NCBI RefSeq assembly: GCF_025602895.1
Contig: NW_026516301.1
Coordinates: forward strand, 111,207-175,206
DNA: 64,000 nucleotides
Direction: 5' to 3'
Origin: Polychytrium aggregatum
Lineage: Eukaryota > Chytridiomycota > Chytridiomycetes > Polychytriales
A model generated the notes under the pieces. It searched no databases. It was not told the origin of the DNA and saw only the letters and a list, made by a program, of their open reading frames with translations. Made by a program: the position numbers and the translations under genes. Positions 5,201-50,351 of the stretch are shown in pieces (positions within the stretch are counted from its first letter, which is position 1; each line of letters opens with the position of its first letter).

Positions 5201-6666
5201 AGGATGAGCCACAAGCTATATCCACTGCCCGCTCAGAGAAATCGATGCCAAGCTGACAGCCAGGCTGACAGTCAAGCCGCCACTCAGACCACACCGCCTC
5301 CATTCACAATCGGGGATAATGCTGTTGCCTGAGCAGCAGGACATCATGCCGGCTGGGGGAGAGGGGAACGATGCGTTACTTGTCACCACGCAAATCGACA
5401 ATGTAACTCTCGACACCGCCAGGAATGCGGACTTCGACCCGAATGTCGACCCGGGAGAAAGCGTTGAAGCAGCAGTACGTTCCGGACTTGATCTTCCACT
5501 GAGTATGCTTCCCGCCGAACCAGGTCTGGGACTCTTCCTGCACAGGGAGAGGGGACGAGGTTTCAGAGAATAGGCATGCAGACCAATATGCGGCCAAGAC
5601 AGTGTGGGCTCCACAGAGTCGTCAGCGGGACAGACACTGGAGAGCCAGCGGCCACAGTTGCCTCAGAGGGGTTGTGGCGTGTCCAACAGGTTCGCAACGC
5701 CGGGCTGATACGCACGATGTTGTACATCAAAGAGTTGAGGTAGGCAGCCACGGTCGCGGAGGAGCTGCAAGAGAAGCGAGTTCAGGATGAGACACGATAC
5801 GGATGAAGAGGACCGTGGGCTTGGAAGCTCGCAAGATCGGCACTCGACAGTTGATCCCAGCCAAAGTCCAATAAAAGGCCGGCCCTGATAGACCAGCTCC
5901 CAGGTTGGCAGCAGGAGCCACTTACCTCGAATCGACACCCAGGACATAGTGATAGGAGCCAATCTGCGTCGAAAAATAGGAGAGTGCGAGCAGAATCGAG
6001 CAGAGTCAGAGGAAGGTAGGTGCTTGACAGGAGACGGGCTCCTCTATGCCGTTGAGTCGTGCGGCGGGCTCGCTCGGGCGCTGCAGATATCTCGGTGGTG
6101 AGAAAGCGAGGGGGCCGGAATCGATTGAGGCAACCAAGAACATCCCGGAGACGAGCACATACATCCTTTTGCTGTCCCTTGATGTTGGTTTTGATGACAT
6201 GGCAAAGATCAGGAGGGCCCAACTCCCGGAAGGTAGCTGCAGCGAGATTGGAAACGGAGGTTGGTGATCAGGGAGGCTTGGCCAAAGCAAACCGCCGGGA
6301 GAGGCGGAGCCCCCATGGTCGGTCGTGTACCGCAGATGGAAGCACCACACAGTATGGAGGAGACGGGATATGCATGGCAAGAACGCAGCCGCCTGCCCCC
6401 AGGAGGAGCCAAGAAGCTGCGTCGAGCCGTCTTTGGTCAGGGGCCTTGGGACGGCCCTGGCCGAGCGACAGGGCGGCTGTGGGCTCGCGAGCCATCGACC
6501 GATCTGGGCAGCACCAGTAGCGAGCGAGCAAATAAGCGACGAAACAAGATGCGATGGCGAAAAGGGTACCTAGGGCCTCAGTGCGGGCAGCAAGGCACTC
6601 GGCGAGCTCGCTTTCGAAAAACTCGGGGATGCCTCGCAGAACGGTCGAGTCGACGACAAAGACCAT
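2296..6666 (-). CDS. ChAPs-family exomer subunit (Bud7/Bch1/Chs6-like)
   Basis: Cargo-binding subunit of exomer, the trans-Golgi coat that (with Chs5) sends chitin synthase and other cargo to the plasma membrane. The ATG at 6666 opens exon 6666-6570. Exon 6236-6163 follows in phase and reads TFRELGPPDLCHVIKTN, then 5963-5926 reads IGSYHYVLGVDS; both are hallmark ChAPs motifs. Later exons give TVAAYLNSLMYNIVRISPAL, WFGGKHTQWKIKSGTYCC, a TPR-like stretch near 4900-4080 (VRFFEALFDKEPEVGVPLAR; LAVTYAPSEFLTWAKLTETY), and a long exon around 3822-2989 with FRTKRLCEKWLDNLFMVLYN. The last exon, 2478-2296, ends VTRFFDYAELFKVEGVNW. It has at least ten exons with short introns. An acidic, low-complexity insert (about 3440-3260) sits between conserved blocks. 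Which yeast paralogue it matches cannot be decided by eye. Confidence 0.9.
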
Positions 6667-7168
6667 GGCTTGCTGAATGCAGGAAAAGGCGCTGGCGTGA
6701 TGGATGGGGGAGGAGAGATCCGAGGCAAGTACAGCAGCAAGACGAGGCCGCAAGGACGGGCTGGATCGGCTCGATGGAGATGGGCGGGAGGGAGTGCGAT
6801 GGGGCGGGGGAAAGAAAAAGGAGAATCTCGCAGGAGCCGCGAGCGACACCCTGCTGGCGGCGACCAGGCGAGACACAAAGCGCACCAGCGGCTCCCAGCC
6901 ACACGGCATCCGGCGCACGCCGTCCAACACCACCGGGCGGGTCGCTGTGATCTGCTGTGATCTGCTGTGATCTGCTGTGATTTGCTGCGATGCAAGGGGA
7001 TGCAAGGGGATGCGAAAGGGATGCAAGGGGATGAACTCGTTGCGATATGATATGGTGGAATGCGATGCGGTGCATTGCTTATGGACGGCATCCCGCCATC
7101 CCGCTCCCCTCTCATGAAAGATCTATCGCCGATGCAAGTCCGTGAGCGATGGTGACTCCAGCAGTCCG
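6667..7168. other. Upstream region of the ChAPs gene with two short tandem repeats
   Basis: This lies between the ChAPs start and the PSF3 stop. At 6949-6985 there are about four head-to-tail copies of TGATCTGCTG. At 6986-7032 there are imperfect copies of GCAAGGGGAT. They lie 280-370 bp upstream of the ChAPs ATG. No gene was recognised. Confidence 0.6.
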
Positions 7169-8618
7169 TCAGCTCCGCCGAATCCGTTTCGCCTGCCGTT
7201 CCAATACAGAAGCCATCCGAATACGGCCGGTCATGCTTCCTTGCCATTTTTCAAACAAATGCACAGAGTCCCTGCCAGCTCGATACACTGCGTTGCGACG
7301 AGAAAACACCGGTTTTGCCAACGGGAGAGTCAGTCCATCGGCGCTCATGTTCTTGGAAGCCGCCCGAGACTCTGTGTGGATCGAGCTCTTTGGTCGGGCA
7401 TAGCCCAACGTTTACGCACGCTCGTATGCCTGGCAACCAGCCACGGAGTCAGCCTCCAATGTCGACTTACGCTGCTTCTCCGTCTCGTCCAGCGCATTCA
7501 GGTAGTCCAGTCGATCGGGGCGCTGTGGTGTCTGGGTGAAATCCATGACTTCGCGAATGCGACTCCGGAAGGCCTGGACCGACGATCCGGCGTGGGATAG
7601 AACCAACCCCTTGCGAATGAGTATGTCGAGCGGACTCGGCCACGAAGGGTGGAAGGGGAAGCACATGGACGCCGCAAGTTGCGCAGATGCGAATACCTCC
7701 AGCAGAACCGAGCTCAAATCGCGAATTTCGATCCTAGGCAAGAGTCGAGATATGCTCAGCACCTTTCGAAGCATATCATCGCCGTGGAATCACTGACCAG
7801 TCCACTGGCTGTCGGCTCCGTTTGTGGTATATCCTCTCTGAGGCTTCAATCATGTCCAGTGGCTTATGGATGTCTACGCAACTAGCACTGTGCATTCAGG
7901 CACATGTAGCTTACAGGTCCAAGAGTTTCGTCGCAAAGGCAAAGTAGTAGCTGCAGATGTTATTGAGCGGAACGGCCTTGGCAGATGCCGTCAGGTCCGA
8001 CATGATCTTGGGGCCAAAGCATTTAGGGAGATCGAGCTGCACAATGTCGCTGTTTGTCCGTCAAGCGATATTGTATAAGTAACAGCCGTTGTCATCGTCA
8101 TCAGGACGCAAATCGCCCGATCCATCGAACCATGTAACCCACCGCTGAGCAAGCTCGGAGGCCATCCAAAACGGCAGCTCGACCCTGGTTTCGGCGGGTA
8201 GGTCCTGTAGTGTCATGAGAACGGGATCGTTGAGGCATGACTGACGGATCAACATGGGCAGAACGGATTGACTGAGCTCTGGCAATGCGTGAGCGACACA
8301 CGCCATCGAGGAAACATGAAAGCGCTTTTCGAGTCGCAACAACAGCCGTCGCCGCCGCAGCAGCAGCAGCATCAGCATCATACACTGGTGTCATGGAGAC
8401 CGTCGAGGAAGCCATATTCCGGCACCACCTGTCCGAACACTGCAGGGATTTTCTGTCGAGGAAGCCAGACATGCACATGGCGGTGGAGATTAGGATGGAA
8501 AGACGATGGCGATTTTGAACCTCGAACGACAGCTTGTGAAAAGAGAGAGCTCCCGCACCTGCTGCTCGACGAGAATAGAGTCCAGATCGAAGTGATCGCT
8601 TGGGTGGTAAGTCGCCAT
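7169..8618 (-). CDS. PSF3: GINS complex subunit Psf3
   Basis: Subunit of the GINS tetramer, part of the CMG replicative helicase (Cdc45-MCM-GINS) in the nucleus. The ATG at 8618 opens the exon MATYHPSDHFDLDSILVEQQ, the typical Psf3 start (D-DIL-E). The next exon gives KIPAVFGQVVPEYGFLDG. A third gives the diagnostic VELPFWMASELAQRWV, then DIVQLDLPKCFGPKIMSDLT. The helical C-terminal part (7774-7470) includes RSRIREVMDFTQ and YLNALDETEKQ. A last exon, 7287-7169, continues in phase with LYRAGRDSVHLFEKWQ and ends at the stop at 7169. The second intron contains CAG/CTG-rich sequence. Length and motif order fit the family. Exon borders around 8400 are less sure than the rest. Confidence 0.85.
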
Positions 8619-9317: not shown

Positions 9318-11532
9318 TTAGTAAGGGTAGGGGATGGCCTGAGGAGCAGTGTAGGTGAAGGAGTCGGTGTTGTAGGTGCTGGCGATCTTGCAGTAGTCGG
9401 TGTTGTCGTTGGAGGGGAAGTGGTAGCCGACGGTGGTGTCGATGGGAGAGCCGTTGTGGCCGGTGAGAGACTCGCCAGGGAAGCAGCACTCGTGGGTCTT
9501 CTGGCCGGGAGTGGCAAGGTTGGCATCACACCACTCAGTACGGAAGACGGTGCCCTCTTGGTTACCGAGGTAAGAGAGATCAGCAGCGGCAATCTGGAGC
9601 TCGTTGACAAGGGTGGCACGGAAGCGAGCAAGGCGAGCAGCAGTTTGGACACTGTCATAGGCAGGGGCGGCGCTGCCAGACCAGTAGCGCTCGGCAAAGG
9701 CCGAAGCACGGGGGAAAGCATAGCGGTCGAGGTTGTGGCGCTTGATGGTCTCGGTCCACAAGCAAACCGAGCCACCAATAAGAGCCTTCTTGGCCGAAGC
9801 AGTCAGGCCGGTGGTGACGTCGTAGTTGTAGATGCGGGTCCAGTTGTGCCACTGGCCAGCAAAGGTGGCATAGCCAGTGAGGTTGTAGGAAGTGGCAGGG
9901 ACGCTAGTTTCGAAAGAGTCACTGCACCAGTGGGCGGAGGGAGAGCAATCGAGATAGTAGGCATTGGAGGTGGTGGCGATGATGTTGGTGAAACCCTGGT
10001 CGGCAAAGTTCTGGATGGCCGAGTTGTCGCCCTGCCAGTTCCAGATGTAGGTGTCCTTGGGGATGATGTTCTGGACGTTAAAGTCGGTGACAATGTCATC
10101 CCAGGCACCGTAGTGCTTGTTGTTGGTCTGGGCGATCTGGAGGAGCTTGGGCTCGGCCTGAGCCATGATCTCATAGATACCATTGACATCAACAGAGTCC
10201 CAGCTGTCGGGAGTGGTGCCATAGACACGGTAGTTGAACTCATCGTGGCCAAAGTGGAGGACAGGGTCCTCGAACCAGGCACCAACCTCAGCAACAAGCT
10301 GGCCGTAGAAATCAATGGCAGCCTGGTTGTTCAGATCGATCTGACCACAGGGGGGTTCGTTGCACCACTGGGTGCCCCACCAGACAACACCGTTGGAGGC
10401 GTTGTTGGCATCACCGTTGCGGCCATCCCAGGGAGCGTGGTTGAGACCGACAACGAAGGAAGGATCGGCAGCAGCAAAGACGGCGTTGTGGCCGATGGCC
10501 TCGAACTCGGGAAGGACACGGATGTTGCGCTGGAAGGCATACTGGACGAGCTCACGGACATCCTCCTCGCTGTAAACCTTGGGGTTGCCATTCTGATCCT
10601 TGAAAGCGGCGTTCAGGAGCTGGGGGTACGAGGGCCAGTCGATGGGGAACGACTGGGAGTCGTAGATGTGCCAGTGGAAGACGTTGATCTTGGAGTAGGC
10701 CAGACCGTCGATGATGCGCTTGATGTCGGCAACGGGGAAGAAGTTGCGAGCAGTGTCGAGCATGAAGCCACGGTAGGGATAGGCGGGAGCGTCGTTGACG
10801 GTGGCAGCAACGACCTGACCACTGCTGGTGACGAGCTGGGAGAGGGTCTGGAGGGCGTAGATGGCGCCGACCTGGGTGTTGGCTGTTGTGTGGGAGTGGG
10901 AGTGGGATTGTGCAGTTGATGGCAGAGACAGTGAATGGGACAGTATCAAGGTCAGTGAGTGCGACATACACATCAGGGTCGATGAGTGCGACAGTATCAA
11001 GGTCGGTGAGTGCGACAGTATCAAGGTCGGTGAGTGCGACATACACATCATGGTGAGCGTGACATGGCCGCGGTCAAGGACGTGGACAATCAGATCGTGC
11101 ATCGCAGGACAATCGATCATGAGCCACATCTCATCCATCCTGATCAGAGTGCATCGCCGTGGCACACAACTCACCCTTGACGTTGACACCGCTCGAGCTC
11201 ACATCGAGGGTGTACGACTCATCGGCACCGACGAGGTCCTTGGCGGCAAAGCCGTTGTCGTTGGCAATCGAGACGGTGACGGTCAGGGAGCTCTTGGCCT
11301 TGGAGGCAGAGAAGCGCGAGCGGGCCGAGGCCTGGAGACGGCCAAAGGCAGCAACGACGTTCTCGTTGTTCTGGCTGTTGTCAGCGAGAGTGAAGCCATG
11401 GGCGCTGATGAGGGCCTTCTTGTCGGTGACCTGAGCGGGGTAGGGCCAGAGGTAGTCGCCGGCAGCGTGGGACTGGGCAGCGACGGCACCGGCAAAGGCA
11501 AAGACGGCAGCAGCGGCTCTGAATGAGACCAT
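9318..11532 (-). CDS. Secreted beta-N-acetylhexosaminidase, GH20 family, copy A
   Basis: Hydrolyses terminal N-acetylhexosamine, probably chitin oligomers, outside the cell. Exon 1 (11532-11175) begins with a signal peptide (MVSFRAAAAVFAFAGAVAAQ), then the GH20b-like N-terminal domain (DYLWPYPAQV). A 292-nt intron (11174-10883) joins in phase to exon 2 (10882-9318), giving 640 residues. Exon 2 opens ANTQVGAIYALQTLSQLV and holds the TIM barrel: RGFMLDTARNFFP, KINVFHWHIYDSQSFPIDWP and RVLPEFEAIGHN. The catalytic Asp-Glu pair sits in FGHDEFNYR, and IWNWQGDN and GGSVCLWTETI follow. The catalytic context is GHDE, not the common GGDE. The C-terminus is Cys-containing (ATPGQKTHECCFPGE). It is a paralogue of the copy at 16886-19100; the first 1.27 kb of the two look identical. 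Long open frames on the opposite strand are composition artefacts. Confidence 0.95.
10883..11174 (-). repeat. Minisatellite-bearing intron of GH20 copy A
   Basis: The intron contains about four imperfect ~24-bp units (core GTGAGTGCGACAGTATCAAG on the + strand) at 10932-11050. The same intron is found unchanged in copy B (18451-18742). Confidence 0.85.
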
Positions 11533-16885: not shown

Positions 16886-19100
16886 TTAGTAAGGGTAGGG
16901 GATGGCCTGGGGAACGGCGTGGGTGTAGGAGTTGGTCTTGTAGGTGCTGGCGATCTTGCAGTAGTCGGTGTTGTCGTTGGAGGGGAAGTGGTAGCCGACG
17001 GTGGTGTCGATGGGAGAGCCGTTGTGGCCGGTGAGGGGCTCACCGGGGAAGCAGCACTCGTGGGTCTTCTGGCCGGGAGTGGCAAGGTTGGCATCACACC
17101 ACTCGGGGCGGAAGACGGTGCCCTCCTGGTTACCGAGGTAAGAGAGATCAGCAGCGGCAATCTGGAGCTCGTTGACGAGGGTGGTGCGGAAACGGTCGAG
17201 ACGAGCAGCGGTCTTGACGGCATCGTAGGCAGGGGCGGCGCTGCCAGACCAGTAGCGCTCGGCAAAGGCAGAGGTACGGGGGAAGACGTAGCGATCGAGG
17301 TTGTGGCGCTTGATGGTCTCGGACCAGAGAGCGACAGAGCCACCAATCAGAGCCTTCTTGGCCGAAGCAGTCAGGCCGGTGGTGGCATCGTAGGTGTAGA
17401 TGCGGGTCCAGTTGTGCCACTGGCCAGCAAAGGTGGCATAGCCAGTGAGGTTGTAGGAAGTGGCAGGGACGCTGCGCTCAAAGTCATCACTGCACCAGTG
17501 GGCGGAGGGAGAGCAATCGAGATAGTAGGCATTGGAGGTGGTGGCGATGATGTTGGTGAAACCCTGGTCGGCAAAGTTCTGGATGGCCGAGTTGTCGCCC
17601 TGCCAGTTCCAGATGTAGGTGTCCTTGGGGATGATGTTCTGGACGTTGAAGTCGGTGACAATGTCATCCCAGGCACCGTAGTGCTTGTTGTTGGTCTGGG
17701 CAACCTGGAGGAGCTTGGGCTCGGCCTGAGCCATGAGCTGGTAGATGCCGTTGACATCAACAGAGTCCCAGCTGTCGGGAGTGGTGCCATAGACACGGTA
17801 GTTGAACTCATCGTGGCCAAAGTTGAGAACGGGGTCCTCGAACCAGGCACCAACCTCAGCAACAAGCTGGTTGAAGAAGTTGATGGCGGCCTGGTTGGTC
17901 AGATCGATCTGACCGCAAGGAGGCTGGTTGCACCACTGGGTGCCCCACCAGACAACACCGTTGGAGGCGTTGTTGGCATCACCGTTGCGGCCATCCCAGG
18001 GAGCGTGGTTGAGACCGACAACGAAGGAAGGATCGGCAGCAGCAAAGACGGCGTTGTGGCCGATGGCCTCGAACTCGGGAAGGACACGGATGTTGCGCTG
18101 GAAGGCATACTGGACGAGCTCACGGACATCCTCCTCGCTGTAAACCTTGGGGTTGCCATTCTGATCCTTGAAAGCGGCGTTCAGGAGCTGGGGGTACGAG
18201 GGCCAGTCGATGGGGAACGACTGGGAGTCGTAGATGTGCCAGTGGAAGACGTTGATCTTGGAGTAGGCCAGACCGTCGATGATGCGCTTGATGTCGGCAA
18301 CGGGGAAGAAGTTGCGAGCAGTGTCGAGCATGAAGCCACGGTAGGGATAGGCGGGAGCGTCGTTGACGGTGGCAGCAACGACCTGACCACTGCTGGTGAC
18401 GAGCTGGGAGAGGGTCTGGAGGGCGTAGATGGCGCCGACCTGGGTGTTGGCTGTTGTGTGGGAGTGGGAGTGGGATTGTGCAGTTGATGGCAGAGACAGT
18501 GAATGGGACAGTATCAAGGTCAGTGAGTGCGACATACACATCAGGGTCGATGAGTGCGACAGTATCAAGGTCGGTGAGTGCGACAGTATCAAGGTCGGTG
18601 AGTGCGACATACACATCATGGTGAGCGTGACATGGCCGCGGTCAAGGACGTGGACAATCAGATCGTGCATCGCAGGACAATCGATCATGAGCCACATCTC
18701 ATCCATCCTGATCAGAGTGCATCGCCGTGGCACACAACTCACCCTTGACGTTGACACCGCTCGAGCTCACATCGAGGGTGTACGACTCATCGGCACCGAC
18801 GAGGTCCTTGGCGGCAAAGCCGTTGTCGTTGGCAATCGAGACGGTGACGGTCAGGGAGCTCTTGGCCTTGGAGGCAGAGAAGCGCGAGCGGGCCGAGGCC
18901 TGGAGACGGCCAAAGGCAGCAACGACGTTCTCGTTGTTCTGGCTGTTGTCAGCGAGAGTGAAGCCATGGGCGCTGATGAGGGCCTTCTTGTCGGTGACCT
19001 GAGCGGGGTAGGGCCAGAGGTAGTCGCCGGCAGCGTGGGACTGGGCAGCGACGGCACCGGCAAAGGCAAAGACGGCAGCAGCGGCTCTGAATGAGACCAT
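16886..19100 (-). CDS. Secreted beta-N-acetylhexosaminidase, GH20 family, copy B
   Basis: Tandem paralogue of the gene at 9318-11532, at a constant offset of 7568 bp and with no net indel. Exon 1 is 19100-18743, the intron 18742-18451, exon 2 18450-16886, giving 640 residues. The signal peptide, N-terminal domain, intron and first third of the barrel appear identical to copy A. From about 17925 down to the stop the copies diverge, with about 30 amino-acid changes, for example NQPPCGQIDLTN against NEPPCGQIDLNN and GGSVALWSETI against GGSVCLWTETI. The catalytic pair is kept in FGHDEFNYR. Both genes look functional. The likely role is extracellular chitin or chitooligosaccharide breakdown, or wall remodelling. 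Confidence 0.95.
18451..18742 (-). repeat. Minisatellite-bearing intron of GH20 copy B
   Basis: It is base-for-base the same as the copy A intron as far as can be read, including the ~24-bp repeat units. Confidence 0.85.
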
Positions 19101-21907: not shown

Positions 21908-24310
21908 TTAGGCATACAACTTGGTCGAAAAATTGCCTCGCTCCTTGAAGACACCAGCTTGGCTCAAGCCTCTCATCACCCACTCGCGCTCGATTCTGAA
22001 AAACACCCAGACCCACCGCCGGACAATCTCAAAGAGCTTGATCAGCAGCTCCAGAACGACGGCCTCCTCCAGGATCGCCAGGGTCTGGCCCGCGATCTGT
22101 TCGTGCTCGTCACCGAGCTGCCGGGTCTGCCACTCTTTGACTGTCATCGTCATCAGCGTGTACATCAGATCGACCTTGAGGCACCACGAGAACCGCACAA
22201 TGACATCGAACGCCATCGCAAAGTAGTACGGCATGGCGCTCGGAAAGTGCAGCACCGGCCGGAGCAGCAGACTCGCCAGCTCCTTCTTCAGCCGACTCAG
22301 GAAGCTCCCGCTGTTGCTGTTGTGCATGCTGGCGTTGATGGCGTTGCTAGTTCCGCCAAGCTGCCAGTCGACAAAGATGTCCCAGTAGATTGAAAAGATG
22401 GTGTTGATCATGTTGAAGAACACCCTGAGCGTTCGTTTCGGATCGGATCGGATCATGGGAGATTGGCCAGCATCGAATCCGAGTCCGAGTCCGAGTCCGA
22501 GTCCGAGTCCGAGCCCGAGTTCGAATGATAGGACCGGTCCCGGGGGTCGTGTTGATGCGCCGATCGATAGATCGATAGCTCATTAGTCGAACAGTCCCGG
22601 CAGGTGGCTCATACCAAATAGGGATCCCTCGAACACACAAAAAGACAAGAAATCGAACCTGCAGTGCAATCCTACCATATGGTTACCGTGAACTTCATAT
22701 TGGACTCGATCTCGACCAGTGTCGCCGCATCGTCGATATCGCTATAGCTCTTGAGACGAATCCACGCCATCGAGAACGATGCCGCAATCACGGGAATGGA
22801 CGAAAGATACTTGAGGGAATTGAGCAAGTGCCGCCCACGGCTACCCCGATCGGTGGCCAGACAAAACTCGGCGACACATTGACGCAACCGGAAGAGATAT
22901 GGCAGACTGATGGGGGGGGTTGTAGAGAGCATGGCAGGTCGAGTTGTGAAACTGGGATTAGTTGGTAGTCCAAGATATGGACGTGATGCCACGGGTCGGA
23001 GGGGAGGGAGATCCCGATGGAGATGGCTCTGCTGGAGATCAGCAGCCAGCGCTGACGCAACGGATTCAACTGATACGGCCAATTGGCTCCCTCCAACGAT
23101 CGGTTGCCTAGATTTCCAGCATCATCTAGGTTCCCTCAGGCCCATCCAGGCTTTGATTGACCAGGTTCGGTTCTGAGCCAGTGTCCACGGCTCTTCCAGC
23201 TGCGAACATCCGACCGTTTCGCTCTTGCCGTCCCAACTCGACTTGCCTTATGATGACCGGTCCAATCCAGTCCGATAGAGACAGACCCGGGAGCTCGCTG
23301 CTGGTGGAGGCTCCAAGCTCGGATTCTTCTGTCCACCAGAGCTCGATAAGCGCCAGGTGTAGATCCCCAAACACTCGGGCATATGAAGTCAGGATATCTG
23401 CCAGGATGACATCGCAAAAGGGTACTGCCGAAAAGATACCACCAAATACGATCCGTTTCATCGAGCTGATGCAGAAGAAAGTGACGCAGGTTAGCGGCCA
23501 CCGGTGTACCTTGGCCACGATCGACGCAGCAGTCGGCGAGATGATGCTCGCTGAAATAGAACAGCGACACCGGTATGCAGAAACGACTTACTTCCAGAAC
23601 TTGATGCGTTCTTCGGCAAAGAGGGATATGGCAGGTATCGCCGCCAACAGGAACGAAATGCCTAGTGCTGCGATCGGAAAGAGGATGCTCCTGTCGTCTT
23701 TCCAGATCCATGAAACAAGCCCATGTCCAAACAGTGCCGCAACAAAGATGACCGTAAAGCAAGATGCCAGAGAGTAGACGTTGTGGTGGGAGGATGACAC
23801 AGGTGAGTCCGCCGGCGCCAACGCAATCGACGATCCTTCGCTGCTCTTGTTTGACGACGGCATCGTGACGATACTGGAGCCGCCAGGGCTGCCGCTCTTG
23901 GTGAATGCTGCGAGGTTGATCTTGGGTGCACTTGAAGGAGCTGTGCCGAGGTCCCGGATGTCGATGGACGACCGCAGGTCCAGGCTGGAGCTGCGAGCCG
24001 AGCCGAGGGGCGGATGGGCCATCTGATCGACCTGATGCTGCTGGTAGTGCTGGACAGACTGGAAGACCGAGAGCGACGCCGGAGTATCGACGTGAAGGAT
24101 ATAGAGAGTGTCGATCCCGAACCGAGAGAGGATGTCGAGGTTGGAAGCCCAGCACCACAGGCCAATGTTGAGCAGAAGCAGGATGTGCAGCAAGGGCGGC
24201 AGCCCCGCCAGTCCGGCTGCCGCATAGTAGATGTTTTTGAGAATGAGGTAGCAGGCAAACGAGACGGCCAGCAGCAGCAGCACGTTGAGAATCTTGGATC
24301 GCTTCCACAT
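21908..24310 (-). CDS. ERD1: EXS-domain membrane protein, Erd1-like
   Basis: A polytopic Golgi-type protein. In yeast, Erd1 is needed for retention of ER-lumen proteins and for phosphate recycling and glycosyltransferase retention in the Golgi. The ATG at 24310 starts MWKRSKILNVLLLLAVSFAC. Exon 1 runs to about 23592 and carries several TM helices and a Ser-rich loop. Middle exons give KRIVFGGIFSAVPFCDVILA and then LRQCVAEFCLATDRG and LNSLKYLSSIPVIAASF. The last exon has the EXS signatures NTIFSIYWDIFVDWQL, then RFSWCLKV and LEEAVVLELLIKLFEIVRR, ending at 21908. There is no SPX domain, so it is Erd1-like rather than Syg1/Xpr1-like. A (GAGTCC)n repeat lies in an intron at 22476-22520. Confidence 0.85.
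22476..22520. repeat. (CCGAGT)n microsatellite in an EXS-gene intron
   Basis: About seven 6-bp units lie just upstream (on the minus strand) of the exon that encodes the conserved EXS segment. Confidence 0.85.
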
Positions 24311-24911
24311 ATTGTCGTCAGCAGCGAGCAGGGGAATGCAAGGGGAGGCAAGAGTTGGTGGGTCGAAGGAAGGGCAAGCCGGGGAGGAATGCAAATGCAG
24401 AACGGAAGCAAGAGGCCACGGAGAGACCGAGAGTCAACGCCCCAAAGACAAGGCGGATGATGGCGGGGAAGACAGGTGCCGAGACGACGATCTAATGGCC
24501 GGAACAGGGCCGTCTATATAAGAGCTGGGTGCCGGGACGCTGAATCCGTGATGGCGATGGATGGCGACAGGAGGTGGTTGGATCGCCGCTGCTGCCGCAA
24601 AGAAAAAGGCACGGCCGACGGCGAGCGGGATGAGGGACCGACAAAGAGTGCTGCCGAGAAGACGACCCGAGTCGAGACAGAGCGACGGATTGACAGGACG
24701 GCCAGCTTGCCCCAGGCGACGAAGCGCTGCCCTCGACGGACAGGAGACGGCCGAAACATCGGGGCAGAAGCAGCGGGTTTGGCTTTGGCTTTGGCTGTGG
24801 GCCTCGGATCGGCGCTGTTTGTGTGGCCAGCGTCGCAGAAGGCCGAATCGGGCGCTTGTGCTCAGGGCCTTGCCGAGGGGATGGCGCGGCTCGATCTGGC
24901 TGGTCTGGATA
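24311..24911. other. EXS gene upstream region, truncated by the Fanzor element
   Basis: About 600 bp between the EXS start codon and the left boundary of the Fanzor element. A TATATAAGA-like TATA box is visible at 24514-24522 but it is in the + orientation. No gene was recognised. Confidence 0.45.
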
Positions 24912-25574
24912 TCACTATCAATTTTTTCCGGCCCCTCGCGGCTGCTCATCTCGGTCACCTGAAAGTCACGTTGGATGTGGTGCAGCAAAAGTTGGAATCC
25001 GGCCATCGTCCGTTGAAGGCATTTGATATCACCTTGAGCCGATTGACGGTGGTGGTGGGCAATTGGTGTGGAGGAATGACCAATTGTATCATTGTTGGAA
25101 GCTCCACTCCGATTGCGGACAAGAACCACCACCATCTGAATCTCTCTGGTTGGAAACCTAGTCAAGCGTGGCTGTGTGTCAGCGAGATGACATGATCGTT
25201 TGGCTATCAGGCAAGACTCACCTTGACAAGATGTCTTCCCACGACTGATTGAGCGAGCGATGCGTTTCTGGATCTGAATCAAGGACGCCACTGCGCAGTA
25301 TCTCTGCCAGCCCAAAATGCGCTGGTTTTGAGGAGAATTTTTCTTCCCCAAGGGCAGAACTGTCATGAACCGCGTTCCCACGCCCGGTGGATGGTTTCAT
25401 GGGCGCCCCAACCCGTGTCCTGTTTTCTTGATGTGCAATGTTGGGTAAGGCACTGACATGAAACCTCCCGGCGGGCGAGGGAAACGTTCGGATCTAATTT
25501 CCCCCCGTCGCAGATAACTAATCTCCCTTGTAGTGGAAGAAAAATCTGCGGCGAACAAGGACGGCGTTTAGAGA

Positions 25575-25580
25575 TATAAA
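25575..25580 (+). promoter_or_regulatory. Candidate TATA box of the Fanzor gene
   Basis: TATAAA in GAGATATAAACGAGG, 179 bp before the ATG at 25759. This stretch is deleted in the second element. Confidence 0.4.
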
Positions 25581-25758
25581 CGAGGTGCTGTGGCCTCAGA
25601 ACCAGCACCTCACCTTGCCTCTTGTATCCTGCCCTTAGCCTATTGAATACACTCCCCTTCGTCCTACGACCGTCCGTTCGACTACCATCAGCTGTCTGGT
25701 GCCAAAGTCCAGCTCCGTTCCTGACAAGAACCAGCCATCGCTGCTATTTTCTCGCCAG

Positions 25759-28344
25759 ATGGCTCCCAAGAGAAAGACACCCCCCGACCCCGACCCAGGA
25801 TCACCCAGTGACTCTCCTGTGGCCAAGAAACCCGTCATCAAATCGTGTCGTGCCTGTGGCCTGACCAACCATGTTAGGCCCTTCACCAAGAAGTGCACAG
25901 CCAGAATCGACAGCAGCCCTGCCTCGGTCGCTGAAATGGTCAGCCAAGCACCCAAGGTCCCTGTATGTGCCACGTGCAAGCAAGTGGGCCATGCCAGAAG
26001 CAACACCCCAAAGTGCCGTTTCTATAACCCACTCTGGAGCTCTACCCTGCCTGGCTGTGGCCCAAACGAGCAAGTCAAGGCCGAGTACTCCACCGTCAAG
26101 TGCACCCTCGATGCCATCATCAAGAACGACACCTTGCACGACAAGATCGAGGAGACTGTCCGGGCCATGACACACGTGCAGTACGAAGCATCTCGTCTCC
26201 TGGAGCTGCATCTCAGGCGGTGCTTGGACGAGGGCATCACCCTCCCCACCGTGTCGTCGAGTGAACCCGCGTTTGTTCGAAAGTGCTTCAATATGGTGCA
26301 GACAGGAACAGTGGGTGCCAGGACAAACACCCCAAAAGATGACAGGCACATCCTCGACACCTATGAGATGTACCGAAGTACATGGAGTGAGACGTGTGTC
26401 CTGCCTCCAGTGTCCCTCCCGAAGGGTACTGGCTCGCAGGTTCTCGCATTGGCTGTCAAGACCTATGCTGTCAACTGCGAGACCCACATCGTGGATCGAT
26501 ACTGGTCTCTCCTCCGTCGATACTGCAATTTGGTCCTGGTTGCTCCCAAGGGTGTGAAACGTCATACACACGTCGACGATTGTATGAAGCTGATGGAGAA
26601 TCCCCTCTCCAAGACACTCCTCGGTGATCTGAGAAAATCCTTCGCCCACCATGCCGACCAGTTGTATGAGTTTCGGTACGAAAGCCACCAGGACCTGTAC
26701 AAAGTCGTACCAATTCTGGCCAGTGAAGTCTCTCGGCTGACCCACCTGAAGGAGGCCCTCTTCATGGTGGTCTTTCAGAAGATGATCATTCCCAGGCTCG
26801 CGAGGGTGACCGATGTTCTAAAAGGAGAGCGTGGGCGACTGAACGAGGAGATGTGCCAACCCATCCACCACATCGGGGCTGACAGACTCAAAGATCTCCA
26901 GACCCAGCACGAGGAGGTGTGCAAGCAGATCGCTGTGAACATGAAACGGATCAAGCGCATCACCGACCGGCTTGCCCAGACCAAGAAGCGCCTCAACATC
27001 CCTCGAGCACAGTGTACCTTGGTCCCGCTCTGCGATGCCCGAGCCAAGTATGTCAAGCTCGACACCAAAGCACTGTGGGAAATCCTTGGATACCAGACTG
27101 GCACTGGACTCAAGTGGGGCGACCTGAAGACCAAGGTCAATGGCACCACAAAGCAAGAGACCTTCTGGCAGACCAACTTCAAGCTGGAGTCGAGACTCTT
27201 TGGTGCCAGGGAGGAAGGCAAGCAGCTCTTTGGTTGCGAGATCACCGATGGGGTCGGGTGCTCGATCACCACACTCAAATACAAGATCCTGGAGAAGGAT
27301 CCTGATGTCAAGCCAGAACCCGTGGACAAGACACCCAAGCTCACTCCCGAGCAGAGGATCCAGGCCAGAGTCGGTCCCATCGACGACTCTCGGACCACAT
27401 GGATTGGGATCGACCCTGGTGTGGGATCGATCTTCACCGCTGTCATTCGAGCACCCGGTCAACCATCCATCCAGGAGCAAGACGGTGTCAAGGTGACCAA
27501 GGCACAGCGTGCCAACGAGAAGATCGTGTCGTTCTCCAACAAGGAGTACCAGCATCGATGTGGCACCACCCAGGCGACCAAGTGGATCCAGAGCACCCAC
27601 AAGATCCTTGATCTGCAGCAATGGATGAGCACCACACCGAGCCCCAAGATCCCTGGGTTGGCTTCCTTCCTGCAATACATTCGCCATGTGTTCGATGGAG
27701 ACATGCTGGACAAACAGCTGTACTTCAGCCTGACCCGGCGACGGCGATTCAAGCGACTCGATCTCCACAGCAAACGACAGCGCACCGTCCACGAGATGTG
27801 CAAGCAAGTCATCGACCAGGCACCGAAGGAGACCGAAGTGGTGATTGCCTTTGGGAATGCATCCTGGAAACAGGGGAAGGGATATGCCTCCAGTCCCAGG
27901 AGACTCAGGTTCGTCAAATACTTTGAGCAATTCCACCATCACCAGAGACGCCCACCAGACCGATCCGTCTCCAAGATCCATGTGTGCTCGGTGAACGAGT
28001 TTAACACATCCCAGGTGTGCTCACACTGCCGGGAATTCAAGCGACTCGAGAAGGTCGAGCATCTCGATATCGAGAAACCACACTTTGTCCGGAGCTGTGC
28101 AAGCTGCCATACGCTGTGGGATCAAGACATCAATGCAGCCAGGAACATGATCTCGGTATGCCAGTCGATCATCGCCACAGGAGATCGGCCGAGTGTATTC
28201 AAGACCATGCTTCCCAAACCAACCAAAACCACTCGATTGCCAACGAAGACAGGAGTGCAATGCCATGGCCTGCCCACTGGGCCTACAAGTCAGTCAGCGG
28301 GCTTCAGAAGCCAGAAAGTGACTGTCCCGTTTCTTTCTGGATAG
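25759..28344 (+). CDS. Fanzor (eukaryotic TnpB-like RNA-guided DNA endonuclease), intact
   Basis: Encodes 861 residues without introns, starting at the first ATG (MAPKRK, a nuclear-localisation-like basic start). Domains in order: two CCHC zinc knuckles of form CxxC-x4-H-x7-C (C30, C33, H38, C46; C70, C73, H78, C86); a long helical/REC-like region; then the RuvC-like nuclease. RuvC-I is WIGIDPGVGS with D552. The RuvC-II strand reads EVVIAFGNASW with no Glu after the strand. SVNEFNTSQVCSHC holds E747 and the first Cys pair (C754, C757) of a zinc ribbon, closed by SCASC (C780, C783). RuvC-III is DQDINAARN with D790. By family knowledge, TnpB and Fanzor proteins use a guide RNA from their own element's end to cut DNA, and Fanzors have a relocated catalytic Glu; E747 fits that. 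All three catalytic positions are present, so it may be active. The stop codon lies inside an inverted-repeat motif. Confidence 0.93.
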   Translation: MAPKRKTPPDPDPGSPSDSPVAKKPVIKSCRACGLTNHVRPFTKKCTARIDSSPASVAEMVSQAPKVPVCATCKQVGHARSNTPKCRFYNPLWSSTLPGCGPNEQVKAEYSTVKCTLDAIIKNDTLHDKIEETVRAMTHVQYEASRLLELHLRRCLDEGITLPTVSSSEPAFVRKCFNMVQTGTVGARTNTPKDDRHILDTYEMYRSTWSETCVLPPVSLPKGTGSQVLALAVKTYAVNCETHIVDRYWSLLRRYCNLVLVAPKGVKRHTHVDDCMKLMENPLSKTLLGDLRKSFAHHADQLYEFRYESHQDLYKVVPILASEVSRLTHLKEALFMVVFQKMIIPRLARVTDVLKGERGRLNEEMCQPIHHIGADRLKDLQTQHEEVCKQIAVNMKRIKRITDRLAQTKKRLNIPRAQCTLVPLCDARAKYVKLDTKALWEILGYQTGTGLKWGDLKTKVNGTTKQETFWQTNFKLESRLFGAREEGKQLFGCEITDGVGCSITTLKYKILEKDPDVKPEPVDKTPKLTPEQRIQARVGPIDDSRTTWIGIDPGVGSIFTAVIRAPGQPSIQEQDGVKVTKAQRANEKIVSFSNKEYQHRCGTTQATKWIQSTHKILDLQQWMSTTPSPKIPGLASFLQYIRHVFDGDMLDKQLYFSLTRRRRFKRLDLHSKRQRTVHEMCKQVIDQAPKETEVVIAFGNASWKQGKGYASSPRRLRFVKYFEQFHHHQRRPPDRSVSKIHVCSVNEFNTSQVCSHCREFKRLEKVEHLDIEKPHFVRSCASCHTLWDQDINAARNMISVCQSIIATGDRPSVFKTMLPKPTKTTRLPTKTGVQCHGLPTGPTSQSAGFRSQKVTVPFLSG

Positions 28345-28350
28345 ACTGTA
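28312..28350 (-). repeat. Inner terminal-repeat motif at the Fanzor 3' end (copy 1)
   Basis: Read on the minus strand it begins TACAGT and contains ATCCAGAAAGAAACGGGACA then GTCACTTTCTGG. The outer end is a TA (28349-28350). It also folds on itself (CCAGAAAG pairing with CTTTCTGG, 28311-28340). It includes the last codons and stop of the Fanzor gene. Confidence 0.75.
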
Positions 28351-28636
28351 AGTATCTCGCACTGTTGAGTATTTCGACAGTGGATGCCGGGTCGTCCATA
28401 TTCTGGGCAGTCCACTTCGGGGTTGCCTTCCCTCTTGGGATGGTCGATGGGAGGTGGTTGACTCCCTTGTGCAAAGTGTGTGTGTGCAAAGTGTGTGTGT
28501 GTGTGACGGCGAGAGGCTTCTCGCCTTCCCTCGGGGGTCTCTCGCCAGAGACTGCTCTTCTCGCCGACCGAGGTGGCTCCGAGAGCGCGTTTTATCGTTC
28601 TCGCTCATTTTATTAACAAGAACTTTTTTCATAGTG
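28345..28636 (+). ncRNA. Candidate Fanzor guide-RNA (fRNA/omega-RNA) scaffold
   Basis: This 292-bp noncoding segment runs from the Fanzor stop to the element's right end. It is retained almost unchanged, with no net indel, in the second, coding-defective element. It has two adjacent perfect hairpins: 28508-28525 (7-bp stem GGCGAGA/TCTCGCC, 4-nt loop) and 28537-28552 (6-bp stem GTCTCT/AGAGAC, loop CGCC). There is also a duplicated GTGCAAAGTGTGTGT unit (about 28469-28500). In TnpB/Fanzor systems the guide RNA typically comes from this position. No transcript is shown, so this is positional and structural inference. Confidence 0.45.
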
Positions 28637-28939
28637 TACGGTGCGACCGCTGGGAGCCTTGGGATCTGTTCTGCTTGGTGGGACTGGCCATTGGCTGAGC
28701 CATCGCTCCATTCCGGCCATTGGACTGGCCCTGGTCGCTGCCCGTTTCGCTCGGCACCAAAGCAGCGTCGGTCTGCGCCTCTGCCAAGAAGCGGCCGTTC
28801 TGCTCTCTTGGACCCGACCCTTGCCTGGTCGCCGTCCATCTCCGTCGTCCTTCCGTTTCGCCGTCTTGCCATCCTTCTTGGGTCGCTCTCGCCATCCCGT
28901 CGCTCTACTCTCTCGCCTCCACGGCCCAAACCCGTCGCC
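28637..28939. other. 5' flank of the LRR gene, between the Fanzor right end and the ATG
   Basis: About 300 bp, pyrimidine-rich near the start codon; the LRR gene promoter or 5' UTR is expected here. The Fanzor element abuts it directly. Confidence 0.5.
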
Positions 28940-31518
28940 ATGTTCCCGTCCCCCGCCTCCGACCTGTTCTTCCACAACTTTGACGTTCACCAGGCCATCC
29001 TGAACCTGCTCTCGTCCGAAGACGCTCTTTCGCTCTGCACCGTCGTCCCCATCCTGCGGTTCAAAGCCCCGCACTTTGTCCACCGGGCCATCAGCAACAA
29101 GCGGGTGAAGAAGGGAATCGCCACCAAGAACGTCGAGCTGATTTGCTCTTCCCTGAACAGCTCTGACATTACATCCCTCAATGCCACAAGGCTCTTCCGA
29201 GGTGCGAGTGGAGGCCGCTGAAGCACATGTCCCGCAAATGAATAGCGATGGATGTGCGGGGCTGCTCCCAGCCTGCTTTCGGCCGCATCGGGCTGTCGCG
29301 GGTATAACAAATACCGACCATGTTTCATGATTGTGTCCGCCGCCGCAGCCCGTATCCCCTTCATGACGTTCATCAACACCCTCAAACCCAACCAGAAGGT
29401 GACGATGCTTTGCTTGGACGGTGAGCCATCTGCCAACACCTGCGTCGTCGACTCCCCAGTGTCGATTCCCCAGTGTCGAATTGTCAAACCATGTCCTTGC
29501 TTGCACCTGATGGACGTCTGTCGATCCATATGCCGCTCTCCCCTTCCAGGAAACACCATCGCTGCCGGTGGCGCTCGTGCCATCGCCGAGCTGCTCGAAG
29601 TCAACTCGACAATCAAGTACCTCGAGCTCAGAGGTGGGCAGCGTCGCTGCATCCCAGGCGGCCCTGATTTACTTTGACATCTGCTGAGAACCATGCGGCT
29701 CACAGTCCCATATTTCCTCGACCAGCCAACGGAATCGAGCCCGAAGCCGCTGCATTCCTGGCCGAGGGACTGGTCCGCACCAAAACACTCTCGTTTCTCG
29801 ATCTAACAAGTGGGGGACCGTCAGGCATCTTGCCTGCTTCCGTTGCTGCTCAGCTCGACTCGGCCCTATTGGGAGTTGCTGTCATCACGCCGCTCAGTCC
29901 TTCATGTCCTTGTTAGCCGCTGCGTTCTGAGCATCTGTCCTGCACCACACAGCCAATTTCCTCGGGCCCCAGGGAGTCGCCAGTCTCTCGCAGGCCCTCT
30001 GCCTCAACACCTCCATCCGGTCCTTGGTCTTGTCAGGTATCGACTCTGGCCTCCCCGTGGCAAAGTCTGGCTGACCTGCATTCATCGTTAATCGACGACT
30101 CGCTCACTTGCCTCGACAAGATGTTTGCATGGGCGCCGACGGCGCACAGGCCTTGGCTCAACCGCTCCGTCAGTCGAAAACATTGAGGGTGCTCAAGATT
30201 CGAGGTATGGGCCGTACGAAAGCCCGTCTCCAGAACCGCCATCAGCCATAGGCATGCCAAGCTCCCACTGACACTGACACTGACACTGACACTGACACTG
30301 ACACTGACACTGACACCCGCATACGCATACGCACCCACATGTCGGCGACAGACAATCGAATCGGGCCGGACGGAGCTATCGCGTTGGCGCGAGCTCTAGA
30401 AACCAACAGCCACCTTGAAGTCCTCGATTTGCAGCGTGCGTTTCTCACTCATTGTGCCTCAGAGCGCTGCAACTCTCACTGCGCCTCCAAGGCCATGCGG
30501 ACTCACTCATTGCGACTCCTATCATTTTTCATCTAGGCAACGGTATCATGAATGAAGGCGCCGTGGCCATAGCAAATGCTCTCGAAGTCAACCAGACGCT
30601 GAAGAATCTCAATCTTCGAAGTCTGTAGCTGCCATCTTTTGCAGCGTCTGCTTTTGGATCGATCTCTTGTGCAGATTTATCCGTCGTTCTGTCGGTGTAC
30701 CACAGCCTCCACAGACCAATCCCTAATGTCACTCGTGGCGCTCACTCCTGTATATCTTCGTACAGACAATCGGCTCGGCTGGATCTCGGCCGAGGCATTT
30801 GGACAGACTCTCAAAGTCAATAGCACTCTGCGTGTCCTGGGCTTGGATGGTATGGCAGCTACACTCGGAGCCGATGCCAACTTTGCCTCGCTTTTCTTGA
30901 ATTGAACTCATCACTCACTCACTCAACCCCATAGATAACATGATCAAGGACCAAGGTGTGTCGATTCTTGCCGATGGATTGCGCCTCAACACTGCCCTAC
31001 AGAAGCTGGATCTCAACAGTAAGCACCTCCCCCTCCCATCACCCTGAGTATGCACGGTCTCGGCCGGATACTGTTCCGGTCTCTGACTACGAGCAATCGA
31101 CCCGATTCCCCTCCTCCAACTTTCGCGGCTGCTCTCAACCAAACGCCACGACGGCAGCCTCAAGAATGTCAAGTGTGGGTGCAATGTCCTTGTTGAGTGC
31201 CCTGGACTCCAACCAGACCTTGAGGAGACTCGATTTGACAGGTGCGTGACCTTGACGAGCACCTTGGATATGCCGCAGCGGCACAATAGAGTGCTTGTCT
31301 TATCCACGTTTCACGGACTATCTTCCATAACAACCCTCTGCTGAACATCTCCAACTCTTTTTGTCAACCACAACACCATCGCCCGTGTTGCTATCACCAT
31401 CGCTCTCAACGCAAACACTCTCGTCACCACCCAGGCAACTCGGACATCCAACGAGACATTGTCCCCAGCGTCGATCGTCACTCGGCTCGCGTCGAGATTT
31501 TTTTGGATCGCAATTTGA
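28940..31518 (+). CDS. RNI-type leucine-rich-repeat protein with one repeat per exon
   Basis: Exon 1 (28940-29201) starts MFPSPASDLFFHNFDVHQAI, a helical N-terminal domain that may be F-box-like. Exon 2 (29349-29420) gives the first half-repeat. Nine following exons are each exactly 84 nt, all in phase 1, and each encodes one 28-residue ribonuclease-inhibitor-like LRR. They are 29550-29633, 29726-29809, 29953-30036, 30121-30204, 30352-30435, 30537-30620, 30766-30849, 30935-31018 and 31158-31241. Typical repeats are NTIAAGGARAIAELLEVNST and NGIMNEGAVAIANALEVNQT. A C-terminal exon with NTIARVAITIALNANT ends near 31518, but no clean AG acceptor is visible for it. The role is unknown; such LRRs bind proteins. 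An AATAAA lies at 31632. Confidence 0.85.
30266..30316. repeat. (CACTGA)n microsatellite in an LRR-gene intron
   Basis: About eight 6-bp units, in the intron between the 30121-30204 and 30352-30435 exons. Confidence 0.9.
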
Positions 31519-47341: not shown

Positions 47342-48523
47342 TTAGTCATAGTCCGAGTGGCCCTGCTGCCGCTGACGGCGCTGCAGATATGACCGTATGT
47401 CCTTGACTTCGTTGTTGCGAGATGCCGCTGCCGCAACAGACACATCGCATCCCTGCCGAAGCAGCAGCTTGACAACACCAGCATGGGTGTTGCATTCCGC
47501 GGCGAGCCTCAGCGGCATCTGGTCCGAGACGAACGGATCGGCACCGTTCCTGAGCAGCAGCTGGACCAGCCCAACGTTTCCGTTCATGGCAGCCATACAG
47601 AGTGCATCCTCCTCGGCAGCATGGATGTCTACGCCCGAGTCGATCAGCAGCCTTGCGAGCGAGACGGCCTCGGGCAGAGAGTCCTTGCACACAGCTCTGA
47701 GAGCGGCGCTCCCTTGGGTGTTGACGTCGGCTCCGTGAAGAATGAGGTACTCGACGAGTGCCGCATTGCCGCTCTCGACCGCCAGCAGCAGGGGTTCGTC
47801 CTGGTCGAGGTGGATGTCAGCCCCGGCTTGGGCCAGGATCCGGACGGTTTCGAGCCAGCCGGCGGAGCAAGCATTGCGAAGGGCCTCGTTGTTGCCGGCC
47901 TCGATCCATGCACCACACCGGACCAGCAACTCCACGATAGATGAGTGTCCGTTGAGGCTGGCTTGCCGCAGCGCAAGGTCGTCGCGAAAGTGGATATCGA
48001 CGACATGGCCGCTACGTCGGTCGCTCGCATCGATCGAGACGAATGGCTGGTGAAAGCCGAGGATACGCTTGACCAGGTCAAGCTGTCCCTCTCGCGAGCA
48101 GCAGACGAGACTGGTATTGCTCGGCAATGCACCACAGTCCAGGAGCCGGTCGACCCAGCTCCAGCGAGAGCGCTGGGCAGCCGTTTCGGAGGCCTGTTCA
48201 AGATCAAGCAGCGAGTGGACGGAGATCAGAAGTCCGCGCTGGACGAGATGCTCTGCCCAGGCCAGGAAACGCCGACCAAGGACGTCCTGCTCTCGGTCAA
48301 TGAGAGCGGCCAGAACCGACTTGCTCTCGCAGGCAAAGTGGATCCGACAAGCCTCCAGCAGCTCGGAAAAGAAGCCGAACCGCAGGACCAGTGCATGGCG
48401 AAGCCTCATGTTGGTTGCGGCAAGGCGCAGAAGGTCTCGTGGTGTGCTGAGAAAGGTCGAGACATTGAGGAGGATCTCGATGGGCAGCTCGGCGAAGGGG
48501 ACTGCGGGGATGCTCGGAGCCAT
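47342..48523 (-). CDS. F-box and ankyrin-repeat protein
   Basis: 393 residues in a single exon. The N-terminus (FAELPIEILLNVSTFLSTPR, then DLLRLAATNMRLRHAL) is F-box-like. From about residue 150 there are seven or so ankyrin repeats, for example ALRQASLNGHSSIVELLVRC, PLLLAVESGNAALVEYLILH, ALCMAAMNGNVGLVQLLLRN and PLRLAAECNTHAGVVKLLLR. The predicted role is substrate adaptor of an SCF-type ubiquitin ligase, with ankyrins binding the target; this is inferred from domain order. It is one of the few intron-free genes here. Its start codon lies about 120 bp from a terminal-repeat motif and 250 bp from the second Fanzor element, so its promoter region is shared with that insertion. Confidence 0.88.
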   Translation of the reverse strand: MAPSIPAVPFAELPIEILLNVSTFLSTPRDLLRLAATNMRLRHALVLRFGFFSELLEACRIHFACESKSVLAALIDREQDVLGRRFLAWAEHLVQRGLLISVHSLLDLEQASETAAQRSRWSWVDRLLDCGALPSNTSLVCCSREGQLDLVKRILGFHQPFVSIDASDRRSGHVVDIHFRDDLALRQASLNGHSSIVELLVRCGAWIEAGNNEALRNACSAGWLETVRILAQAGADIHLDQDEPLLLAVESGNAALVEYLILHGADVNTQGSAALRAVCKDSLPEAVSLARLLIDSGVDIHAAEEDALCMAAMNGNVGLVQLLLRNGADPFVSDQMPLRLAAECNTHAGVVKLLLRQGCDVSVAAAASRNNEVKDIRSYLQRRQRQQGHSDYD

Positions 48524-48639: not shown

Positions 48640-48677
48640 TACAGTTGATCCAGAAGAAACGGGACAGTCACTTTCTG
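48640..48677 (+). repeat. Terminal-repeat motif left of Fanzor element 2
   Basis: TACAGT then GATCCAGAAGAAACGGGACA and GTCACTTTCTG. It is the inverted partner of the motif at 50017-50055, matching over about 33 bp with one missing A. Its outer end is TA (48640-48641). Confidence 0.75.
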
Positions 48678-49246
48678 CCCTTGGGCAAGAGAGCGAAAGT
48701 CGAGGGTGTGGCGAACGGTCATGGCAAGTAAGCGTTGGTGTTGGGCAGCAACATATCTGCTCAACGACTAACACTATCAATTTTTTCCGGCCCCTCGCGG
48801 CTGCTCATCTCGGTCACCTGAAAGTCACGTTGGATGTGGTGCAGCAAAAGTTGGAATCCGGCCATCGTCCGTTGAAGGCATTTGATATCACCTTGAGCCG
48901 ATTGACGGTGGTGGTGGGCAATTGGTGTGGAGGAATGACCAATTGTATCATTGTTGGAAGCTCCACTCCGATTGCGGACAAGAACCACCACCATCTGAAT
49001 CTCTCTGGTTGGAAGCCTAGTCAAGCGTGGCTGTGTGTCAGCGAGATGACATGATCGTTTGGCTATCAGGCAAGACTCACCTTGACAAGATGTCTTCCCA
49101 CGACTGATTGAGCGAGCGATGCGTTTCTGGATCTGAATCAAGGACGCCACTGCGCAGTATCTCTGCCAGCCCAAAATGCGCTGGTTTTGAGGAGAATTTT
49201 TCTTCCCCAAGGGCAGAACCAGCCATTGTCGCTATTTTCTCGCCAG

Positions 49247-50049: not shown

Positions 50050-50055
50050 ACTGTA
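50017..50055 (-). repeat. Inner terminal-repeat motif at the Fanzor 3' end (copy 2)
   Basis: The same sequence as 28312-28350. Its outer TA is at 50054-50055. Confidence 0.75.
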
Positions 50056-50341
50056 AGTATCTCGCACTGTTGAGTATTTCGACAGTGGATGCCGGGTCGT
50101 CCATATTCTGGGCAGTCCACTTCGGGGTTGCCTTCCCTCTTGGGATGGTCGATGGGAGGTGGTTGACTCCCTTGTGCAAAGTGTGTGTGTGCAAAGTGTG
50201 TGTGTGTGTGACGGCGAGAGGCTTCTCGCCTTCCCTCGGGGGTCTCTCGCCAGAGACTGCTCTTCTCGCCGACCGAGGTGGCTCCGAGAGCGCGTTTTTT
50301 CGTTCTCGCTCATTTTTTTAACATGAAATTTTTTCATAGTG
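50050..50341 (+). ncRNA. Candidate guide-RNA scaffold of the deleted Fanzor element
   Basis: Counterpart of 28345-28636 at a constant offset of 21705 bp. Both hairpins (50213-50230 and 50242-50257) and the duplicated GTGCAAAGTGTGTGT unit are unchanged. Differences are confined to the last ~40 bp (T/A changes). If transcribed, it could supply a guide to a Fanzor made elsewhere. Confidence 0.4.
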
Positions 50342-50351
50342 TAAAATTCGG

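Follow-up and report, generated by a model that had tools for sequence, protein, structure and literature searches.

The Fanzor gene at 25759–28344 of the window (the whole stretch of 64,000 nucleotides analysed here) is one of dozens of Fanzor genes on a family of non-autonomous DNA transposons, the copies of which share their ends and 3-bp target duplications, fall into distinct size classes, carry a gene under purifying selection and appear in the assembly as mosaics of one another. Under our main reading, to which we assign a probability of about 0.5, Fanzor1-type nucleases of this family would cut empty insertion sites, and repair of these cuts would retain the insertions and convert their interiors. 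The features of the window element, together with a second, deleted copy nearby, are as follows.

24913..28636, + strand: whole non-autonomous element, 3,724 bp, CACTATC...CATAGTG, boundaries set by comparison of copies
24910..24912, no strand: left target-site copy TAT, its third base differing from the right copy
28637..28639, no strand: right target-site copy TAC, mismatched to the left TAT; the site is not among the 27 with an exact duplication
24913..25360, + strand: left end, non-coding, containing a little-variable block at 25093–25292
25361..25726, + strand: solo-LTR-like insert TGTCA...TGACA, 366 bp
25759..28344, + strand: Fanzor ORF, 861 aa, ATG at 25759, stop ending at 28344
28373..28636, + strand: right end, candidate scaffold region of the guide RNA (omegaRNA), conserved blocks at 28373–28452 and 28513–28592
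28640..28659, + strand: predicted natural guide, the first 20 nt past the right target-site copy, following the Fanzor1 reRNA layout in excerpts of PMC10711439
48772..50341, + strand: internally deleted copy, 1,570 bp, of the 1.55–1.64 kb class, target duplication TAA

The frame of 861 codons proved to be unbroken from ATG to stop, and the residues on which the original prediction relied were all recovered: the RuvC-I Asp D552 in GIDPGVG, Glu E747 in VNEFNTSQV, the four cysteines of the zinc ribbon (C754/C757/C780/C783) and D790 in WDQDINAARN. In addition, the N-terminus contains two CCHC knuckles (C30–C46 and C70–C86). A Pfam search with the 861-aa protein returned PF07282 (OrfB zinc-ribbon / TNB domain) at E=1.2e-8 and 35.5 bits, above the cut-off of 26.3, and the codons for D552, E747 and D790 are kept in all 34 family copies examined, broken ones among them. 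The same 34 copies all combine the D552-P-G of RuvC-I with a repositioned Glu six residues before the CxxC, which is the Fanzor pattern according to excerpts of PMC10711439. The predicted Fanzor identity was thereby upheld, and the ORF product is likely an RNA-guided DNA-cutting enzyme. Its D552–E747 spacing of 195 residues lies outside the 120–160 residues between DPG and Glu in the search pattern given in the same excerpts, a range that we took as a search setting rather than a definition of Fanzors; the older D-X(125,275)-[TS][TS] motif, as it appears in part of PMC3627910, fits the protein, R789Q apart. The match to SpuFz1, the solved Spizellomyces Fanzor, was sub-threshold (E=2) with a collinear C-terminus. 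That the best single-sequence PDB match was a Cas12m (E=0.017) could suggest another RuvC nuclease, either a TnpB or a Cas12, and this we regard as extremely improbable given the DPG and alternative Glu signature, a eukaryotic TIR element as the carrier and a sister gene that adjoins a mariner transposase.

The carrier is a eukaryotic TIR/TSD transposon and not IS607, as expected of a Fanzor1. Since some Fanzor2 are likewise carried by TIR/TSD transposons, as far as the excerpted literature goes, the carrier alone does not settle the matter. This genome also has a Fanzor2 of the IS607 type, which is a different protein; the window gene is most likely a Fanzor1. Fanzor2 genes of the IS607 type, or pieces of them, lie at L001–L008 (genome G000, contigs C49, C124, C157, C346, C379 and C410). 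L003 and L007 combine an IS607-recombinase-like N-terminus and a TnpB-like nuclease in one 477-codon frame, and L003 matches NF033518 and guided_TnpB.

The gene had also been called intact. This is correct for the reading frame and has to be qualified for the RuvC-III motif, where R789Q, directly beside D790, gives QD instead of the usual RD. Among the 34 full-class copies, Gln is found at residue 789 only in the window copy and Arg in the other 33, the window copy's own allele (L010) included; the Gln codon is also carried by the deleted neighbour. The quality of the window copy as a nuclease is therefore doubtful.

No transposase was found inside the 3,724-bp element. Genome-wide, the left-end pattern gave 119 matches (at most one mismatch) and the right-end pattern 125 (at most two mismatches), while reversed control patterns gave none. 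Pairing, which drew on 100 of the 125 right and 100 of the 119 left ends, yielded at least 64 elements: 31 of 1.55–1.64 kb, 14 of 3.33–3.42 kb, 14 of 3.70–3.77 kb, two of about 0.28 kb and three others. The extra LTR-like insert is present in those 3.7-kb copies that were read through and missing from the shorter full-length class. For 34 full-class loci the copies were compared in detail; 33 came from the best matches (40 scored) and L049 from another search, so the set favours full-length, similar copies. Two fold-back elements of about 1.1 and 1.3 kb, L058 (C51) and L059 (C142), consist of two opposed Fanzor left ends. A search for relatives in viral contigs gave 45 pattern matches, none of which was confirmed.

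Diversity (pi) in the left end is 0.039 overall and 0.00–0.04 per 20 bp in the block 25093–25292, compared with 0.116 at third codon positions; this block varies little among copies although it is apparently non-coding, and might act as a promoter, in transposase binding or as RNA. A 93-aa frame in the left end had no Pfam match. At the right end, 28445–28636 is retained in the 278-bp minimal copies. Its predicted RNA fold was not significant (z=-1.3) and covariation was uninformative; Rfam gave no match in 24000–29500 up to E=1, and no tRNA was found in the window.

Among known systems, one close likeness is to SPu-1/SpuFz1 of Spizellomyces punctatus, a Fanzor1 which, in the published excerpts, is likewise a fungal TIR element with Fanzor as its sole gene and a TAM adjoining the target duplication. 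SPu-1 has 17 full-length copies and ghost copies without the protein gene, just as the window family is multi-copy with deleted members. However, SPu-1 is described there as encoding 633 aa and as having TIRs of 33 bp and putative duplications of TA, whereas the window protein has 861 aa and bears two zinc knuckles at its N-terminus. The window element also differs in its 3-bp duplications, its LTR-like insert and the mosaic nature of its copies. The Fanzor1 element of SfAV, according to similar excerpts, is also non-autonomous and carries only Fanzor between TIRs and target duplications, but it is viral, is present in two copies, and has 4-bp TTAN duplications and other ends.

The history of the carrier can be read from a sister Fanzor family, whose protein is 43–44% identical to the window Fanzor. 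A sister element of 3,740 bp on contig C112 has TA on both sides and TIRs sharing AAAAAACGGGACA, and encodes a Tc1/mariner transposase (DDE_3, E=2.1e-20) together with a 790-aa Fanzor. It thus resembles the mariner–Fanzor1 elements PGv-1 and PUl-1, as excerpts describe them, in combining a mariner transposase and a Fanzor with TA on both sides. Two remnants of such an element were found in the window element.

25230..25277, + strand: scar of a Tc1/mariner transposase C-terminus (DVFPRLIERAMRFWI*), 95% over 43 bp to the end of the sister transposase
28323..28350, + strand: fossil of the right inverted repeat of a mariner-type ancestor, lying across the ORF end and aligning to the sister right end

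For the fossil repeat, none of 1000 single-base shuffles gave as good a local alignment to the sister right end. The transposase scar and the fossil mariner end together show that the window Fanzor has changed carrier: its source was an element of the mariner type, and the ends with which it now moves, or once did, are different ones. In contrast to PGv-1 and PUl-1, the window element has lost its transposase, has other ends and retains the mariner end as a fossil inside the ORF. It was rejected as a present member of Tc1/mariner because it has neither a DDE_3 transposase nor a TA duplication, both of which the sister element has.

The new ends look like those of CACTA transposons. CACTA termini and 3-bp duplications are the defining marks of EnSpm/CACTA, and the window element starts with CACTA and belongs to a family with 3-bp target duplications, but has no Tnp2 transposase inside. 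Tnp2-type transposases (PF02992) were found at 29 places in the genome. In a comparison with 100 of the 125 right and 100 of the 119 left ends, the nearest lay 8.7 kb from a listed end and outside the paired element, and a CACTA transposase was not retained as partner. Around one Tnp2 locus, no convincing termini could be recognised. The multi-copy Tnp2-like PF02992 locus L102 (C201:118700-126400) adjoins a palindrome of about 1.5 kb (6194–7701, 98.8%).

Target sites were compared for 54 copies with both flanks: 31 full-class copies, 20 further sites, the window's deleted copy and two minimal copies. Three full-class loci (L030, L051 and L052) were dropped because their left flank was unusable. 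Merging of copies by shared flanks left 39 independent sites, 15 of which have two members on two contigs. Most matches listed for chitin synthase and IFT46 come as such pairs as well, which suggests that the assembly contains both haplotypes and that independent sites are fewer than copies. The same genes bear on the host: Chitin_synth_1 (PF01644), which we take to be a fungal family, agrees with the predicted fungal genome, and the IFT46 match, which points to a flagellum, indicates a zoosporic fungus that probably forms swimming spores.

An exact 3-bp duplication was present at 27 of the 39 independent sites, against a null mean of 4.2 and a maximum of 11 in 2000 shuffles. Matches of 4 bp occurred at one site (null 0.08). 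Since 2-bp matches were at chance level (3/39 versus 3.4), a TA duplication of the mariner type was rejected for the window element. The left flank also showed a motif: the base preceding the duplication is A or C at 34/39 sites, the first duplicated base C or T at 38/39 and the second A or C at 34/39. In full, this MYM was found at 30 of the 39 sites, where the composition of the flanks would predict 12.5%. In the reverse reading it was found at three (p=1.4e-6), the middle base making the two readings mutually exclusive. By class, it occurred at 16/20 full-length, 13/18 deleted and 1/1 minimal sites. We regard the one-sided left-flank MYMN as a candidate TAM. The one-sidedness fits a TAM because the guide RNA (reRNA) of Fanzor1 is reported in excerpts of PMC10711439 to take in both the end repeat and the duplication and to extend about 15 nt past the latter, and because CATA, the SpuFz1 TAM (PMC10432273, in part), lies by the putative TA duplication of its element (PMC3627910, in part). 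Where an element occupies the site, its right end places a G of its own directly ahead of the duplication, which would protect the junction.

The interiors of the elements behave very differently from their flanks. Across 11 allele pairs, mismatches amounted to 18/18,770 (0.1%) in the flanks and 862/40,145 (2.1%) in the elements; in one of these pairs, the element takes in some neighbouring repeat and has no left flank. Individual pairs have between 0 and 176 substitutions, one being identical and one having five differences. For 760 of 864 allelic differences (88%), both bases are present in other copies, versus 12% for a random new base. Linkage between sites approaches free assortment beyond some 60 bp, and four-gamete breaks were seen in 54% of SNP pairs 11–30 bp apart. 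Furthermore, L031 and L032, about 21 kb apart on the same contig, share an exact stretch of 3,072 bp, whereas L031 differs from its allele L036 at 108 sites. Two insertion sites have a long version on one contig and a short version, identified by span only, on the other (3.88 versus 1.56 kb and 3.36 versus 1.63 kb). These findings suggest that the copies are mosaics, with ectopic gene conversion among them. Relative to diversity, conversion was 0.34–0.43 in the right half and 0.22–0.33 in the left, a difference without a significance test; being only somewhat higher, the right-half value does not clearly mark a break at the right end. No title or abstract among the open-access papers listed for Fanzor described such a carrier or such conversion.

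Nearly identical flanks with differences confined to a repeat interior are also what errors in assembling or polishing repeats could produce. We consider it decidedly unlikely that the mosaic copies and differing alleles arose in this way. The assembly of 64.7 Mb has contigs of up to 1.6 Mb with no N in the window, the allele pairs spread from 0 to 176 substitutions, and the four-gamete breaks at 11–30 bp are shorter than usual k-mers. Other repeats look clean: across 3.1 kb, the two alleles of a Fanzor2 pair agree at 99.7% in one case and 99.1% in another, and the Tnp2 loci L045–L048 are identical to L102 over 3,165 bp with L041–L044 all at 98.0%, although these may simply be young.

Recombination between copies is further indicated by the LTR-like insert. 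It is flanked by a 5-bp duplication, AGAAC (25356–25360 and 25727–25731). All of its 19 genome matches (361 bp searched) lie in Fanzor elements at 98–100% identity, the nineteenth, on C416, being assigned from how far it lies from a listed right end. A parent of the insert was not found genome-wide. Its pi of 0.010 is a tenth of that at third codon positions, and copies sharing it differ by 6–8% in the ORF. The possibility that insert-bearing copies form a separate lineage was rejected, since Fst against other copies is near 0 beyond about 50–90 bp from the insert; at the right end it was 0.08 (p=0.04). Because Fst is near 0 elsewhere and insert diversity is low, the insert seems to have spread among copies by recombination. 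It contains TATAAA at 25575, 184 bp before the ATG, and may drive Fanzor as a promoter.

In the mechanism that we propose, Fanzor from any intact copy would load right-end RNAs of many copies, deleted ones too, with the DNA directly right of the target duplication as the guide. The required TAM would be about 5'-MYMN, that is, the left flank including the duplication, and an occupied site would escape cutting because the element's own GTG takes the place of the first M. When a transposase acting in trans removes a copy, Fanzor would cut the empty site, and repair would restore an element with the homologue or a further copy as template, retaining the insertion while overwriting element interiors by gene conversion. 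A stricter version would be that insertions survive only with MYMN in the left flank and an own end that destroys this TAM, RNA-guided breaks turning the copies into a recombining pool. We think this version rather unlikely; if true, the LTR-like insert and the 1.57-kb deletion would pass between fixed insertion sites.

Fanzor could also be a passenger, in which case the motif would reflect where an unknown transposase prefers to insert, and the conversion would be ordinary recombination of repeats. Gene conversion between repeats is well known. The one-sided motif overlaps the target duplication, and deleted copies show it about as often as full ones. However, target preferences of cut-and-paste transposons are mostly symmetric, and the motif is not (30 forward versus three reverse); the purifying selection on the ORF, with a pN/pS of 0.29 for RuvC and the zinc ribbon, also speaks against a passenger. 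We rate a passenger role as a real possibility, short of probable. The biological role of Fanzors is stated to be unknown in the excerpted text of PMC10432273. This one genome gives a testable prediction (the TAM MYMN, the start of the guide and an element end that protects its own site), preserves the record of a Fanzor switching carrier from mariner to another end type, and shows a possible footprint of nuclease-driven conversion, and with it a handle on what Fanzors do for their carriers.

Selection and diversity were estimated with one copy per allele pair (23 of the 34). The pN/pS ratio was 0.35 for the whole ORF and 0.29 for RuvC together with the zinc ribbon, which shows that the Fanzor family is, or at least was, functional under purifying selection. 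Of the 34 copies, 14 keep the D/E/D residues and the four cysteines in an ORF that reaches 780 aa or more; in the other 20 the ORF is incomplete or a catalytic or zinc residue is missing. Joined-flank queries for 14 of the 39 sites recovered no empty allele among the best 40 candidates, whereas several of these sites yielded a second allele that was occupied. No excision was therefore seen, and recent movement is not shown. The earlier expectation of a probably active copy that may still be mobile is weakly supported: purifying selection is seen for the family as a whole, and the lack of a transposase in the element, the 0/14 empty alleles and R789Q count against it. R789Q, the 0/14 empty alleles and the 20 impaired copies would also suit a window copy that is dying in a family by now largely inactive. 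This we find somewhat unlikely, in view of the 14 copies that keep frame and residues and of the insert, whose low diversity in copies 6–8% apart in the ORF implies that sequence has recently spread among copies.

The nearby deleted copy, which had been predicted, is real. It matches the full copy over 451 bp at 99.6%, 1,077 bp at 99.1% and 62 bp at 84%. The window copy is 99.2% identical to this neighbour and 97.6% to its own allele L010, and none of the other 32 copies exceeds 94.2%. The near-identity of the neighbour had been read as a sign that the full copy may still be expressed and mobile. It does not show recent movement: the neighbour is a member of the large 1.57-kb class, and contig C212 carries two copies with the same spacing as the window pair, the first with the same flanks. 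The match fits local gene conversion. The deleted element is enclosed by a short, TA-flanked mariner-type derivative (48642–50376) whose TIRs resemble the sister family's and which has an apparent remnant of that family's transposase start. An adjoining ORF at 47342–48523 encodes ankyrin repeats and has a weak F-box match below the Pfam cut-off. Elsewhere in the window, two 623-aa ORFs at 9318–11189, a glycosyl hydrolase family 20 protein, and 16886–18757 match at 94% of DNA positions over 300 bp, and therefore probably represent a tandem gene duplication.
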